From a virus, in the IMG/VR virus record IMGVR_UViG_3300017773_000073, positions 1 through 32,105 of that record: a DNA stretch of 32,105 nucleotides; one strand, given 5' to 3'. Shown piece after piece: positions 13-32,105 of the stretch (positions are counted from its first letter, which is position 1; the number at the start of each line of letters is the position of its first letter). The position numbers and the translations under genes were made by a program. The notes below the pieces were generated by a model. The model ran no database searches and was not told the DNA's origin. It worked only from the letters and a program-made list of their open reading frames with translations.

Positions 13-18
13 TACAAT
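13..18 (+). promoter_or_regulatory. Possible -10 element for the riboswitch transcript
   Basis: TACAAT at 13-18 matches the bacterial -10 consensus at five of six bases and would start transcription near 24-26, which is where the aptamer P1 stem begins. The matching -35 would fall just past the scaffold stop codon, across the contig join, and no good TTGACA is seen there. The promoter is therefore inferred from spacing and remains uncertain. Confidence 0.4.
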
Positions 19-23
19 ACACA

Positions 24-97
24 TCCGTTCAGCCATATAGGTCGGAAGTAGGCATTTTGCCGAAGGAACGCATCTTAATCTAATAGAGAGGTGCGTT
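24..97 (+). promoter_or_regulatory. Glutamine riboswitch (glnA / Downstream-peptide class) with expression platform
   Basis: The aptamer shows the hallmarks of this class. P1 pairs CGTTC (26-30) with GAACG (66-70). P2 is a short GCC/GGT stem (32-34 with 40-42). The conserved CGGAAGTAGGC block is at 43-53. P3 pairs GGC (51-53) with GCC (59-61), followed by GAAGGAACGC. These RNAs bind L-glutamine and are known from cyanobacteria and marine metagenomes, often upstream of short peptides. An alternative hairpin is visible: 67-76 can pair with 88-97 (10 bp, two G-U pairs, loop 77-87), covering the GAGG ribosome binding site. It shares 67-70 with P1, so the two folds exclude each other. This predicts that glutamine switches translation of the 98-199 peptide on. 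A P2-loop pseudoknot, as in some members, was not evident. Confidence 0.88.
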
Positions 98-199
98 ATG
101 ACTGTATGTTATAGAGGTGTACGTGTACAAAAAGCTAGAAAGACTGTAAAAAAAATAAACAGTAATCTAGTATATCGTGGAATCAATCACGTTAAATAA
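98..199 (+). CDS. 33-residue basic YRG-repeat peptide under riboswitch control
   Basis: ATG 98 follows GAGAGG (86-91) by six bases; TAA ends at 199. The product is lysine/arginine rich and has two copies of a YRG motif, CYRGVRV near residue 4 and VYRGINH near residue 25. Paired YRG halves recall the small cyanobacterial DUF4278 proteins, and short peptides are the typical targets of Downstream-peptide riboswitches. No catalytic residues, signal peptide or membrane segment is visible. It sits alone between the riboswitch and an intrinsic terminator, so it is probably its own transcription unit. The function is unknown; a small inhibitor or adaptor of a host nitrogen-metabolism protein, by analogy with cyanobacterial glutamine synthetase inactivating factors, is speculation. 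Confidence 0.8.
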   Translation: MTVCYRGVRVQKARKTVKKINSNLVYRGINHVK

Positions 200-216: not shown

Positions 217-241
217 ATGCCCTGTAACAAGGGCATTTTTT
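217..241 (+). terminator. Intrinsic terminator after the YRG peptide
   Basis: A perfect 7-bp GC-rich stem pairs ATGCCCT (217-223) with AGGGCAT (230-236) around a six-base loop, and a T run follows (236-241). It lies 17 bases after the peptide stop and before the capsid promoter, so it isolates the riboswitch-peptide unit from the capsid gene. Confidence 0.9.
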
Positions 242-265: not shown

Positions 266-293
266 TTGACTTTAACTAGATATAGTCCATAAT
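266..293 (+). promoter_or_regulatory. Sigma70-type promoter of the capsid gene
   Basis: TTGACT (266-271) and CATAAT (288-293) each match consensus at five of six bases and are separated by 16 bases. The predicted start lies near base 300. It follows a terminator and precedes the major capsid gene by about 130 bases, as expected for a strong late promoter read by host-type RNA polymerase. No phage RNA polymerase gene is present in the genome. Confidence 0.65.
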
Positions 294-428: not shown

Positions 429-1271
429 ATGAGTAAAAATCTCTCTCCTGTAGCTGTTACTGAGTTTGACAGCTTAGTCCACCAGGTTTATCAATCTAGT
501 GGCAAATTAGAAGGTTGCTACAAATTACGTGCTGGTATAACTGGTGACACTTACAAGTTCCGCACAATGGGTAAAGGGTTAGCAAACCAAAAAGCATCAC
601 AAGCTGATGTTACACCAATGGATGTTACTCACAGCCTAGTTTCTTGTACTCTTGAAAACTGGAACGCACCAGAGTATTCAGACATTTTTGATCAAGCAGA
701 AGTAAATTTTGATGAAAAAGCTGAATTAGCACAATCTATTGCTAATGCTCTAGGTCGCAGAAAAGACCAACTTATCATCGATGCACTTGATGCGGCACAT
801 ACTGCTGGCGGTTTAGCTGGTGATATAGCTGATGGTGGTGCGGCATTAACATTAGCACAAATGCTTTTAGCAAAAGAAGCATTAGACGCTAACGAAGTGC
901 CAGATGAAGGTCGTGTTTTCTTATGCCCACATCAATCATTATCAACAATGTTAGCTGAAACTAAAGTTTCATCGGCTGATTTTCATAACATCAAAGCATT
1001 AGTACATGGTGAAGTTGACACTTTCTTAGGTTTCCAATTCAAGTTTATTGGAACTCGCACAGAAGGTGGATTGAACTCTCCATCTGCAAATCACTTTGAT
1101 TGTTTTGCATATCATAAAGATGCTGTAGGTATGGCTGTAGGTATTGACCAGAAAACTGAAATCAACTATGTACCAGAAAAAACATCTTTCTTGGTAAATG
1201 GTATGATGAAAGCTGGTGCAGTAGCTATCGACAAAACTGGTATCGTAGCATTAACAGTTGACGAGTCTTAA
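429..1271 (+). CDS. Major capsid protein
   Basis: This 280-residue protein matches the shorter capsid proteins seen in many marine podoviruses (HK97-like fold, Phage_capsid_2-like). It starts SKNLSPVAVTEF, has a KLRAGITGDTYKFRTMG segment near residue 33, and a typical DKTGIVAL end. It builds the icosahedral shell, which forms around the scaffold encoded at 31222-31974. ATG 429 is preceded by GAGG eight bases away. It has a dedicated promoter and a structured leader, and the decoration-like gene follows, as usual for capsid operons. The length is short for T7 gp10 but normal for this family. The identity rests on family resemblance and on position between scaffold and tail genes. Confidence 0.88.
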   Translation: MSKNLSPVAVTEFDSLVHQVYQSSGKLEGCYKLRAGITGDTYKFRTMGKGLANQKASQADVTPMDVTHSLVSCTLENWNAPEYSDIFDQAEVNFDEKAELAQSIANALGRRKDQLIIDALDAAHTAGGLAGDIADGGAALTLAQMLLAKEALDANEVPDEGRVFLCPHQSLSTMLAETKVSSADFHNIKALVHGEVDTFLGFQFKFIGTRTEGGLNSPSANHFDCFAYHKDAVGMAVGIDQKTEINYVPEKTSFLVNGMMKAGAVAIDKTGIVALTVDES

Positions 1272-28863: not shown

Positions 28864-29411
28864 TGGCAACACCAAGAACAGGTGGTAGTCCACCAGTGGG
28901 TGACAAAAGACCAGATAGAGCATACATACAAAGAACTGGCAACAAAGAAGGTAAGTTTATGTTTCCAGGTACTATGGGTGGTGGCAATTTTGGTTACTAC
29001 ACAAGAGGACCACAAGCTGGCAAAGTACCTTTATCTGTCAGTCAATATGTAGAAGATTTTGTAACTAATGATCCACGTTATCAAACTGCTAAAAGGTTAG
29101 GCATCTTAGAAGAAGCTGGTAAAAGATACAGCCAAAGTTTTACTGATCCTATGAATATAGCAACAAGAGATGTTAGAGGTCCTATACGCAAACCTGTTGA
29201 CCCATCTGCAAGTCTTGCAAGGTTAGAAGAATTTTCAAATGAGAGACAACTACAAGCATCACAAGAAGAAGATAAAAGAGCATTAACACAAGAGATTATG
29301 GAACGTGAGCAAAGAGTTACAAAGCGTAGACGTAATCCACGATCATTGTTAGCACAGCTACCGAACTTACAAGGCGGTACATTAGGCTCACCACAAACAT
29401 TAGGTGCATAA
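28863..29411 (+). CDS. Unknown protein upstream of portal
   Basis: The 182-residue product begins ATPRTGGSPPVGDKRPDRAYIQRT, has a Gly/Phe/Tyr-rich piece (FMFPGTMGGGNFGYYTRGP) near 32, then a charged helical region (LARLEEFSNERQLQASQEEDKR) and ends in LAQLPNLQGG...SPQTLGA. I do not recognise it. It ends two bases before the portal ATG and is coupled to the previous gene. A minor head protein is plausible. Confidence 0.55.
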   Translation: MATPRTGGSPPVGDKRPDRAYIQRTGNKEGKFMFPGTMGGGNFGYYTRGPQAGKVPLSVSQYVEDFVTNDPRYQTAKRLGILEEAGKRYSQSFTDPMNIATRDVRGPIRKPVDPSASLARLEEFSNERQLQASQEEDKRALTQEIMEREQRVTKRRRNPRSLLAQLPNLQGGTLGSPQTLGA

Positions 29412-29412
29412 T

Positions 29413-30984
29413 ATGTCAGCACAAGCAATATTAAAAAGATTTCAGAAAGCTAAAAATTTAAAGAATCAGAACTGGTTTAGTCACATGAAGGAGTGCTATG
29501 AATACGCATCTCCACAAAGAGAAACATTTTTTGACCATACGCCAGGCGAAAAGAAAAACACAACCATCTATGATGATACTGCTGTAGTTGCACTAGAAAC
29601 ATTTGCTAGTCGACTACAATCTTATATGACACCACCATATCAACAGTGGGCGTTAATAGGTCTAGGAAGTCGTGTACCAGATGAAGTGGGTGAGCAGAGT
29701 GTTACCTTTGATGGCAAAGATATGACTGTCAACGAAGCATTAGAGCTAACTACAGACATAATATTTGACTACATACATCGATCTAACTTCGACACACAGA
29801 TATTTCCAGCATTACTAGATTTGGGTGTGTCTACAGGCAACATCACAGTGGAGTACGATGCAGTACAAGACAAGCTAGTATTTAATTGTATACCTATGCC
29901 ACAAATATACTTAGAACCAGGACCTAATGGAACAATAGATAATCACTATCGAGAATGGGAAGTAGAACTAGGACACCTAGAAAGATTATTCCCAGATGCG
30001 AAGATAGGTGAAGATTTACAAAAAAGAATAGATAGCAATCCTACAAAGAAACAAATGTTTATTGAGGGTTGTATTTATAATGGTGTGAACTATCGATACA
30101 TGGTTATTGATAAGACAAAAAAAGAATTTTTAATAGATAGAGAAGATGAAAGTACACCATTTATAAGTTTTAGGTCTAGTGTTGCACCAGGCGAGACATA
30201 TGGTAGGGGTAGGATAATGTCTGTATTGCCTAGCATCAAGACTTTGAATTTAGTAGCTGAGTATGAAATGACTGCTGGAGCTATTGCTGCAAGTGGTGTT
30301 TATACTGGTGTGACTGATGGTCAGTTTAATCCCTATAACATAGAGATTGCACCTGGCGTTATCATTCCAGTACAGTCTAATGACACAAGAAATCCTAGTA
30401 TTAGACCATTACCAACTAACTTTGACTTTAATTTCACACAAGTACAAAAGACAGAACTGCAAAATGTCATCAATACAGTGCTATTTGCGAACCCTATTGG
30501 TTCAATGGATGACCCAACAAAGACCGCTACAGAGATTACAATGCGTAAACAGATGGATTTACAGCAGTCTGGTGGGTTTTTCTCACGATTATTTTCGGAA
30601 TTTATAGACGTTTTAATCAAAAGGATTGTATTTTTACTGGGCAAAGAGGGAATCATACCTAGTATAAGTGTAGATGGTACGAATTATGCAATCAAACATA
30701 CTTCACCATTAGCATTAGCTATGGACTTAGAAGATGTACAGAACTTAGATGAAGTAATACAGCGATTAATATCATATGATCCACAAGGTGCATTGTTTGC
30801 AAGTGGTATCAAGGTAGAAGATATACCAGCCTACGTAGCTAAGAAGGTAGGTTTAGATCCTAAATTAGTAAGAACGAAAGCGGAGATAGAACAAAAAACC
30901 CAAGAAGCTATGCAAGCACAACAACAAATGCAACAAGCACAAATGGAACAACAACAAATGGGCGGTGAGGTAGTTAATGAATAA
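29413..30984 (+). CDS. Portal (head-to-tail connector) protein
   Basis: The 523-residue protein matches T7-type connectors: SHMKECYEYASPQRETFF near 24, ETFASRLQSYMTPPYQQWALIG near 61, RGRIMSVLPSIKTLNLVAEYEM near 265 and TATEITMRKQMDLQQSGG near 370. It forms the dodecamer through which DNA enters and leaves. ATG 29413 is preferred over an in-frame GTG at 29404. The C-terminus is Gln/Met-rich (QAQQQMQQAQM). It overlaps the next gene by eight bases. Confidence 0.93.
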   Translation: MSAQAILKRFQKAKNLKNQNWFSHMKECYEYASPQRETFFDHTPGEKKNTTIYDDTAVVALETFASRLQSYMTPPYQQWALIGLGSRVPDEVGEQSVTFDGKDMTVNEALELTTDIIFDYIHRSNFDTQIFPALLDLGVSTGNITVEYDAVQDKLVFNCIPMPQIYLEPGPNGTIDNHYREWEVELGHLERLFPDAKIGEDLQKRIDSNPTKKQMFIEGCIYNGVNYRYMVIDKTKKEFLIDREDESTPFISFRSSVAPGETYGRGRIMSVLPSIKTLNLVAEYEMTAGAIAASGVYTGVTDGQFNPYNIEIAPGVIIPVQSNDTRNPSIRPLPTNFDFNFTQVQKTELQNVINTVLFANPIGSMDDPTKTATEITMRKQMDLQQSGGFFSRLFSEFIDVLIKRIVFLLGKEGIIPSISVDGTNYAIKHTSPLALAMDLEDVQNLDEVIQRLISYDPQGALFASGIKVEDIPAYVAKKVGLDPKLVRTKAEIEQKTQEAMQAQQQMQQAQMEQQQMGGEVVNE

Positions 30985-31222
30985 AGATGAAGTGACTGAT
31001 CGATTAAGAGAAAACAGACAACAAGATGCAAAGATGTACCACAATGTATTTGTAAAGAATCCAGATGGCAGTAAGATATTTGAGAACTGGATACAAAAGT
31101 ATTGCTTTAGCAATTTTACACCAGAGGATGCAACAATGTCTGAACTAGCAAAATCAGAAGCTAGGAGAGAATTTGTTGCTATGATTGTACAGAAAATTAA
31201 CTTAGCGGAGAGCGGAGACTAA
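30977..31222 (+). CDS. Bbp19-like small protein
   Basis: The 81-residue helical protein between portal and scaffold has a YHNVFVKNPDGSKIFENWIQKYC segment near 21 and SEARREFVAMIVQKIN near the end. This is the pattern of the Bbp19 family (a VF..PDG..VL start and an EGRR..V..I.. end), found at the same place in many podoviruses. The function is unclear; an assembly factor is likely. TAATG couples it to the scaffold gene. Confidence 0.72.
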   Translation: MNKDEVTDRLRENRQQDAKMYHNVFVKNPDGSKIFENWIQKYCFSNFTPEDATMSELAKSEARREFVAMIVQKINLAESGD

Positions 31223-31974
31223 TGAGCGAAGATAACGTAGCAGAAACAACAGAAGCACAACCAACAGAAACAACTGAGACTGCACCAGTAGAATCTACAT
31301 GGGCATGGAACAGTGAGTTACCTGGTTCTGGTGATGCACCAGAGTGGTTAAATACAGCCAAGTATGCTGATGTATCAGAACAAGCAAAAGCCTACAAAGA
31401 ACTTGAATCTAAGTTTGGTGGGTTTACTGGTGCACCAGATGACTATAAGGCACAAATACCAGATTCAGTGGTAATGCCAGAAGGTGCTGAAATACAGTTT
31501 GATAAAGATGATCCTATTTTCAAAGCAATAGCACCTGTTGCTAAAGAATTAAATATGTCACAAGAAGGATTAGATAAGATGCTAGGTGCATACTTTGGTG
31601 CTACTGTTGAGCAGATACAAGCTGAACAAATGACCGATAAGGAGTACGTTGAAAAAGAATTAAACAGTATCCCACAAGGCGTACAGCGTATTAATCAAAT
31701 GAACAGTTGGGCAAAAGCTAACCTATCAGAAGATGAGTACGAAGCATTTGCAGATTCTATTGTAGATGCTAAAACTGCATTGATGTTTGAAAAAATGATT
31801 AACAAAACTAGGTCTGCACCATTACCAACACCAACGGAAGCACAGACTAAAGCCTATTCTAAAGAAGATATAGATTCTGCTTTCCAAGAGAAAGACCAAG
31901 ATGGCAACAACAAGTACATTACAGACCCAGCACATAGGGCTAAAGTACAAAGAATGATGCAACAAACAAGGTAG
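31222..31974 (+). CDS. Capsid scaffolding protein
   Basis: The 250-residue acidic protein has a Thr/Glu-rich disordered N-terminus (about 1-30), then DVSEQAKAYKELESKFGGFTG near 50 and PDDYKAQIPDSVVMPEG, a typical podovirus scaffold block, and helical segments up to a basic C-terminus (HRAKVQRMMQQTR) that would bind the shell protein. It shapes the prohead and is then lost. Location after portal and, across the contig join, before the capsid gene matches T7 gp9. The riboswitch-peptide module lies between it and the capsid gene. Confidence 0.88.
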   Translation: MSEDNVAETTEAQPTETTETAPVESTWAWNSELPGSGDAPEWLNTAKYADVSEQAKAYKELESKFGGFTGAPDDYKAQIPDSVVMPEGAEIQFDKDDPIFKAIAPVAKELNMSQEGLDKMLGAYFGATVEQIQAEQMTDKEYVEKELNSIPQGVQRINQMNSWAKANLSEDEYEAFADSIVDAKTALMFEKMINKTRSAPLPTPTEAQTKAYSKEDIDSAFQEKDQDGNNKYITDPAHRAKVQRMMQQTR

Positions 31975-32005
31975 CAAGTAACAAAAAAATTATCTACAAT
32001 ACACA

Positions 32006-32079
32006 TCCGTTCAGCCATATAGGTCGGAAGTAGGCATTTTGCCGAAGGAACGCATCTTAATCTAATAGAGAGGTGCGTT
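32006..32079 (+). promoter_or_regulatory. Glutamine riboswitch, second copy by contig overlap
   Basis: This is the same RNA as at 24-97, seen again because the contig overlaps itself. It should be counted once. The -10-like TACAAT lies at 31995-32000. Confidence 0.85.
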
Positions 32080-32105
32080 ATGACTGTATGTTATAGAGGT
32101 GTACG
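32080..32105 (+). CDS. YRG peptide, truncated second copy
   Basis: The first 26 bases of the riboswitch-controlled peptide gene, cut by the end of the window. The complete copy is at 98-199. This is an overlap artefact and not a second gene. Confidence 0.85.

Follow-up and report, generated by a model that had tools for sequence, protein, structure and literature searches.

A predicted type-1 glutamine riboswitch and YRG micropeptide gene inserted beside the capsid gene of a marine phage

Genetic organization of the locus

The window, i.e., the whole stretch of DNA analyzed here (32,105 nt), is IMG/VR record IMGVR_UViG_3300017773_000073 and derives from a marine phage of 32 kb with T7-like tail genes. 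The ends of this virus record overlap by exactly 123 nt, positions 31983–32105 on the (+) strand being identical to 1–123. A cmscan search returned a second match to RF01739 at 32006–32056; since the terminal overlap holds a second copy of this stretch, the match represents the same element as that at 24–74, and a separate second riboswitch at 32006 was ruled out as being the overlap at the circular junction. The following features were annotated in and around the cassette, which lies within the head-gene cluster:

29404–30984 (+), portal/head-tail adaptor (phrog_332, E = 8.4e-89)
31222–31974 (+), scaffold/protease-like gene, next upstream across the circular junction (phrog_458 protease, E = 2.1e-5)
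13–18 (+), possible −10 box TACAAT, 7 nt before P1 (TATACT at equal distance in sister cassettes L007 and L015; suggestive only)
24–74 (+), aptamer of a type-1 (glnA) glutamine riboswitch (RF01739, 50.9 bits; gathering cut-off, 35)
26–30 (+), 5′ strand of P1, CGUUC, pairing with GAACG at 66–70 (Rfam alignment)
66–70 (+), 3′ strand of P1, of which 67–70 are also used by the hairpin over the ribosome binding site (Rfam alignment)
67–97 (+), sequestering hairpin, 67–76 with 88–97 (10 bp) and inner pairs 79–81/85–87 (folding and covariation)
86–91 (+), Shine-Dalgarno-like GAGAGG, 6 nt before the ATG (sequence)
98–199 (+), ORF for a 33-aa YRG peptide, MTVCYRGVRVQKARKTVKKINSNLVYRGINHVK, DUF4278-like (PF14105, E = 3.5e-4, 21.3 bits; cut-off, 25.3)
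217–241 (+), intrinsic terminator 3′ of the peptide ORF, stem 217–236 plus T-run (at the position of the terminator of cassette-free relative L175 by alignment)
266–293 (+), promoter-like TTGACT-16-CATAAT for the capsid gene (stretch conserved in L175)
429–1271 (+), major capsid protein, next gene downstream of the peptide ORF (PF19821, E = 1.3e-71)

The scaffold/protease-like gene corresponds in position to the "capsid assembly protein" of phage MEP301. A promoter scan returned no full promoter for the cassette, and the idea that phage leaders generally have a −10 box at constant spacing was not supported, the 7-nt distance occurring in 4 of 27.

Identity of the aptamer

The first-pass annotation of this locus had described a combined glnA/Downstream-peptide signature with P1 at 26–30/66–70 and had suggested a covariance-model search. 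That search placed RF01739 at 24–74 on the (+) strand, well over its cut-off, with an E-value of 1.6e-8 over the whole window and the model complete (positions 1–53 of 53), and the Rfam alignment gave the same P1. RF01704 (Downstream-peptide, type-2) had no match at E ≤ 1 within 1–400, so the glnA half of the proposed signature stands, the Downstream-peptide half does not, and the element is type 1 rather than a mixture with type 2. It resembles type-2 elements in the kind of short peptide encoded downstream and in shared core letters, but differs in lacking a match to their covariance model. In the RF01739 alignment, P3 is formed by 51–53/59–61 and the strongly conserved core letters are all present (CGGAAGUAgGC / GCCGAAGGAACGC), while P2 (32–34/40–42) has 3 bp, including one G-U, versus 5 bp in the consensus. 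On these sequence features, the phage element would be expected to bind L-glutamine.

The shortened P2 raises the question of whether the aptamer is a decayed hitchhiker from a host, with the hairpin alone giving constant low translation of the peptide. Almost all chromosomal copies from host-like genomes score higher (53.7 to 68.2 bits, above the cut-off), and the cassette seems newly acquired, with none of 80 scanned relatives carrying it (see below). However, the conserved core is intact, and sister cassettes argue against decay: the same short P2 recurs with an intact core in L007 (46.4 bits), and L015 scores 55.1 bits. We consider decay improbable.

The closest characterized counterpart is the type-1 riboswitch upstream of gifB in Synechocystis, which has the same aptamer by covariance model, precedes the same type of gene (DUF4278) and follows the ON logic (as reviewed in PMC6316151) that we also read for the phage element. 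Unlike the Synechocystis switch, the present one is phage-borne, precedes a 33-aa ORF with two YRG motifs and without the rest of IF17, and has a hairpin reaching 4 nt into P1.

A covarying hairpin over the ribosome binding site

The hairpin at 67–97 covers GAGG at 88–91, 6 nt ahead of the ATG at 98. Its predicted energy of −12.7 kcal/mol (z = −2.46) beat 197 of 200 shuffled sequences, with 3 of 200 being as good, and this bears out the 10-bp hairpin 67–76/88–97 over the ribosome binding site that had been proposed earlier. The sequence contains no T-run 3′ of the hairpin, which argues for control at translation rather than termination; control by transcription termination was ruled out for the same reason.

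We then considered leaders in which a short spacer precedes an ORF, drawn from 53 viral contigs with the exact aptamer core and from among the matches listed in bacterial genomes; a second group of phage leaders of other layout (GAACGCATTGA...) was set aside from the folding and covariation sets. All 18 leaders folded had a hairpin sequestering the ribosome binding site and starting at or inside the 3′ strand of P1. Over a set of 13 distinct leaders from phages and bacteria, the pairs of the hairpin had a covariation score of 0.323 (0 of 500 shuffles as high) in a register picked from the predicted folds, a choice that favors that register. Four pairs were changed on both sides among these 13 leaders, all slid registers scored lower, and the inner pairs of the hairpin are those that covary across phage and bacterial leaders. 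A swap test, in which leader i was combined with the ribosome binding site of leader j, is independent of predicted folds and included the second group (32 leaders); native combinations paired better, with 6 of 5,000 permutations reaching the native value for any pairing and 15 of 5,000 for pairing that overlaps P1.

An alignment of related phages had also been suggested as a check on whether both folds covary. The hairpin does so, by the covariation score given above, whereas pairing of 88–97 with four P1 bases is retained in no leaders other than those of the sister cassettes L007 and L015. The four-base invasion of P1 is thus particular to the window and these two cassettes (plus L033 and L049, which have the same leader as L015). 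In the other leaders the same hairpin begins at or beside the P1 boundary, and most bacterial and other phage leaders overlap P1 by 0–1 nt, so in most of them P1 is not the sole competitor.

Competition between folds and the direction of control

P1 and the hairpin have only bases 67–70 in common. The first-pass annotation had held that the two folds exclude each other; competition for 67–70 is evident, but full exclusivity is not, since a 6-bp hairpin (71–76/88–93) stays when P1 is forced and the ribosome binding site is mostly paired in the computed ensemble. This remnant has an energy of −3.2 kcal/mol versus −12.7 kcal/mol for the whole hairpin. Ribosomes are scarcely impeded by a hairpin of about −3 kcal/mol but are by one of −12 kcal/mol, and the ON direction therefore stands. 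On these modeled energies, the best reading is ON control via weakening of the hairpin, not full release of the ribosome binding site.

The same remnant could instead mean that the element binds glutamine but acts as an OFF switch or a weak one, the 6 bp stacking on P1 in the bound state and keeping the ribosome binding site closed. The mostly closed site in the P1-forced ensemble and the 0–1-nt overlap in most other leaders both fit such a switch. Nevertheless, the remnant is weak, the window and its two sister cassettes take the hairpin exactly 4 nt into P1, which fits competition best, and characterized members of the class are ON switches (review PMC6316151). We regard an OFF or weak switch as unlikely. 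According to the same review, both types of glutamine riboswitch mainly precede DUF4278 genes and activate expression upon glutamine binding. Weakening of the hairpin upon binding, i.e., a type-1 glutamine riboswitch with ON translational control of the 33-aa DUF4278-like YRG peptide, is in our judgment the likely function of the element.

By secondary-structure energy, the ligand-free hairpin fold (−25.4 kcal/mol) is ~6 kcal/mol better than the P1 fold (−19.3 kcal/mol), a gap too wide for weak binding to make up at equilibrium. We infer from this difference that the decision to switch is set during transcription, and the modeled mode is probably kinetic, acting when the aptamer has already been transcribed and the ribosome binding site has not. 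In the proposed mechanism, the 3′ strand of P1 and the bases following it would pair with the ribosome binding site (67–76/88–97) when glutamine is absent, and the peptide would not be made. Glutamine bound while the RNA is being transcribed would let P1 form, at the cost of the four outer hairpin pairs; the hairpin, at about −12.7 kcal/mol before, would be weakened to about −3.2 kcal/mol, allowing ribosomes to start on the peptide. Such a switch would report host nitrogen status.

The YRG peptide

The product of the ORF at 98–199 carries two YRG motifs in 33 aa, was aligned with 11 riboswitch-linked peptides, and matches phrog_5049 and phrog_545, phage families of unknown function. We term it "DUF4278-like" because its PF14105 score is under the cut-off. 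Over aligned codons it is 66% and 58% identical to the L007 and L015 peptides, respectively, and all indels are whole codons. The pN/pS values of 0.35–0.38 against these two peptides indicate purifying selection and, together with indels in threes, identify the ORF as a real gene. tblastn found no match to the peptide in isolate phages, and blastn gave chance-level matches only. An AlphaFold model (mean pLDDT, 70; pTM, 0.21) has two weak beta hairpins around the YRG motifs and supports no further interpretation.

In cyanobacteria, DUF4278 makes up the N-terminal portion of IF17, a factor that inactivates glutamine synthetase (PMC6316151). The phage ORF stops after the YRG part, and Pfam reported no further domain (the comparison with GifB being by domain content); because the phage peptide comes without the rest of IF17, a role as a glutamine synthetase inhibitor would be a guess. 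By analogy with cyanobacterial DUF4278 proteins, we tentatively suggest host nitrogen metabolism as the most likely target of the peptide.

Alternatively, the ORF could be a leader whose glutamine-gated translation tunes read-through at the terminator 217–241 and hence capsid expression. From its stop codon (197–199) to the terminator stem the distance is 17 nt, and the capsid gene comes next. Yet a promoter-like site of the capsid gene's own lies past the terminator, in a stretch kept in L175, the peptide sequence itself is under purifying selection, and homologues exist that do not adjoin capsid genes, e.g., in a SAR86 genome. A leader function is accordingly very improbable.

The cassette as an insertion

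The closest relative by capsid protein (L175, 75%) has the same gene order without the cassette. In L175, the scaffold stop is followed directly by the terminator and then by the ACTTAAAGTA...TTGACTTTAACTA promoter stretch as in the window, where the aptamer and peptide ORF lie between scaffold stop and terminator; L175 thus displays the empty site. The cassette spans ~220 bp and is absent in related phages. Specifically, the aptamer core occurred in 0 of 80 capsid-gene relatives, 77 of which include more than 300 nt of upstream sequence, and no Rfam match was obtained in 32 of the 80. The empty site and the lack of an aptamer core in these relatives identify the cassette as an insertion, which looks recent. 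An artefact of contig ends is unlikely, as the flanks each enter the cassette separately, the terminal overlap is exact (123 nt), and closing the circle gives the scaffold-capsid order of L175.

Like phage morons, the cassette is a small unit absent from relatives and located between conserved structural genes. As to a promoter and terminator of its own, in which it may differ from them, the cassette has no more than a −10-like hexamer, shared with L007 and L015, and its terminator sits at the position of that of L175; the terminator at 217–241 is probably the operon's own rather than the cassette's. Since the insertion lies between the scaffold gene and the terminator/promoter before the capsid gene, the peptide would be expressed together with the late head genes or alongside them.

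Sister cassettes and other phage riboswitches

The phages carrying sister cassettes L015, L033 and L049 have no other gene in common with the window. The L015 cassette is flanked by the gene that follows the portal gene and by the major head gene; among isolates, the latter has its closest relatives in KPP25-like Pseudomonas phages (49%). The capsid protein of L001 is 62% identical to that of Roseobacter phage CRP-212, and that of L044 is 34% identical to that of the cyanobacterial Mastigocladus phage CHP58. Given these differing capsids, at least four lineages unrelated to one another have YRG cassettes in or beside their head modules. One possible, still tentative, interpretation is a mobile glutamine-sensing cassette (aptamer, ribosome-site hairpin and YRG peptide) that was independently inserted into the head modules of unrelated marine phages, twice directly before the capsid gene, and whose micropeptide may link late phage development or host glutamine synthetase to the nitrogen status of the host, with hosts including non-cyanobacteria.

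Glutamine riboswitches have been published in phages Melnitz (OM43), Mosig (SAR11) and AG-345-P14 (PMC9004378), and T4-like cyanophages have been mentioned as carriers (PMC9964418, PMC9602691). The first-pass annotation had called a metabolite switch inside a phage head operon unusual, which holds for the setting in a head-gene cluster but not for a phage-borne glutamine riboswitch, given these reports. All of these phages resemble ours in being marine and carrying the riboswitch; that of Melnitz, however, adjoins a tmRNA gene in a T4-like myophage, whereas that of the window drives a YRG peptide in a head-gene cluster. The pairing of riboswitch and DUF4278 is likewise already published for cyanobacteria. 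We found no paper on a riboswitch-YRG peptide cassette in phages, in a search that was thin on subscription journals and hence is no proof. What is unusual here is the strand-exchange geometry and the repeated insertion beside capsid genes. Phages rarely have metabolite-gated genes, and in few of these can one see the fold, name a small product and locate the insertion site. The cassette offers a compact test of whether a phage adjusts to host nitrogen status late in infection, and an entry to the function of the DUF4278/YRG peptides, which are under glutamine-riboswitch control in cyanobacteria and a SAR86 genome.

Two further observations concern other members of the set. Small ORFs (36–65 aa) judged by eye to be unlike YRG lie directly behind the same riboswitch and hairpin in phages L002, L016, L024 and L039, where they share an "NGNGT.GY" stretch, and similar non-YRG ORFs of this size occur in bacteria (L075, L119, L120, L155 and L169). 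CTAAATA/TATAAATA boxes resembling T4-type late promoters lie just upstream of the riboswitches in phage contigs L005, L012, L013, L017, L018, L023, L029, L035 and L052; as judged from these sequences, they suggest late expression there too.

Occurrence in bacteria and the host

Among the matches listed, the aptamer was found in genomes titled SAR86, SAR116, Pelagibacterales, Porticoccaceae, other marine proteobacteria and cyanobacteria. Glutamine riboswitches have been stated to be restricted to cyanobacteria (PMC6316151), which is contradicted by this wide occurrence in marine proteobacterial genomes; marine metagenome examples were already included in Weinberg et al. (PMC2864571). The bacterial riboswitches (genome loci L056–L174) are often in tandem, an arrangement known for this class (PMC9481103), and the genes that follow them resemble glutamine synthetase, ammonium transporter and glutamate synthase genes, as judged by first residues. 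SAR86 genome L101 has a tandem riboswitch pair with a DUF4278 gene above the cut-off. YRG peptides under glutamine riboswitches beyond cyanobacteria were seen in L101 and in L079, L143 and L172 (Porticoccaceae/gammaproteobacteria). By capsid protein, the nearest cultured relative of the phage is the OM43 phage MEP301 (51%); a search for the host with the capsid protein in ~775 genomes of four aptamer-holding orders gave nothing closer than 30%.

A putative structured RNA in the capsid-gene leader

The capsid-gene leader of the window (~307–395) contains a pair of hairpins with a common internal loop (AYACC opposite GC), which they carry in opposite orientations. The hairpins are also present upstream of the capsid gene in L175–L254, with many compensatory changes. 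A descriptor built from some of the same 43 leaders that were searched found the first hairpin in 29 of the 43, the second in 19 and both in 15, compared with 8%, 5% and 0.1% of shuffles, respectively; in the window's own leader, the first hairpin passes the threshold and the second is one pair short. Scans of the window and its relatives gave no Rfam family match for this RNA, and RNAalifold returned no pairs on the leader alignment, probably because stem lengths vary. The structure seems to be undescribed and may be more novel than the riboswitch cassette. In the isolate phage MEP301 (L263), the last 90 nt before the capsid gene contain, by eye, a hairpin like the second leader hairpin (GGCCCAGACTTTCTGGCATACC).
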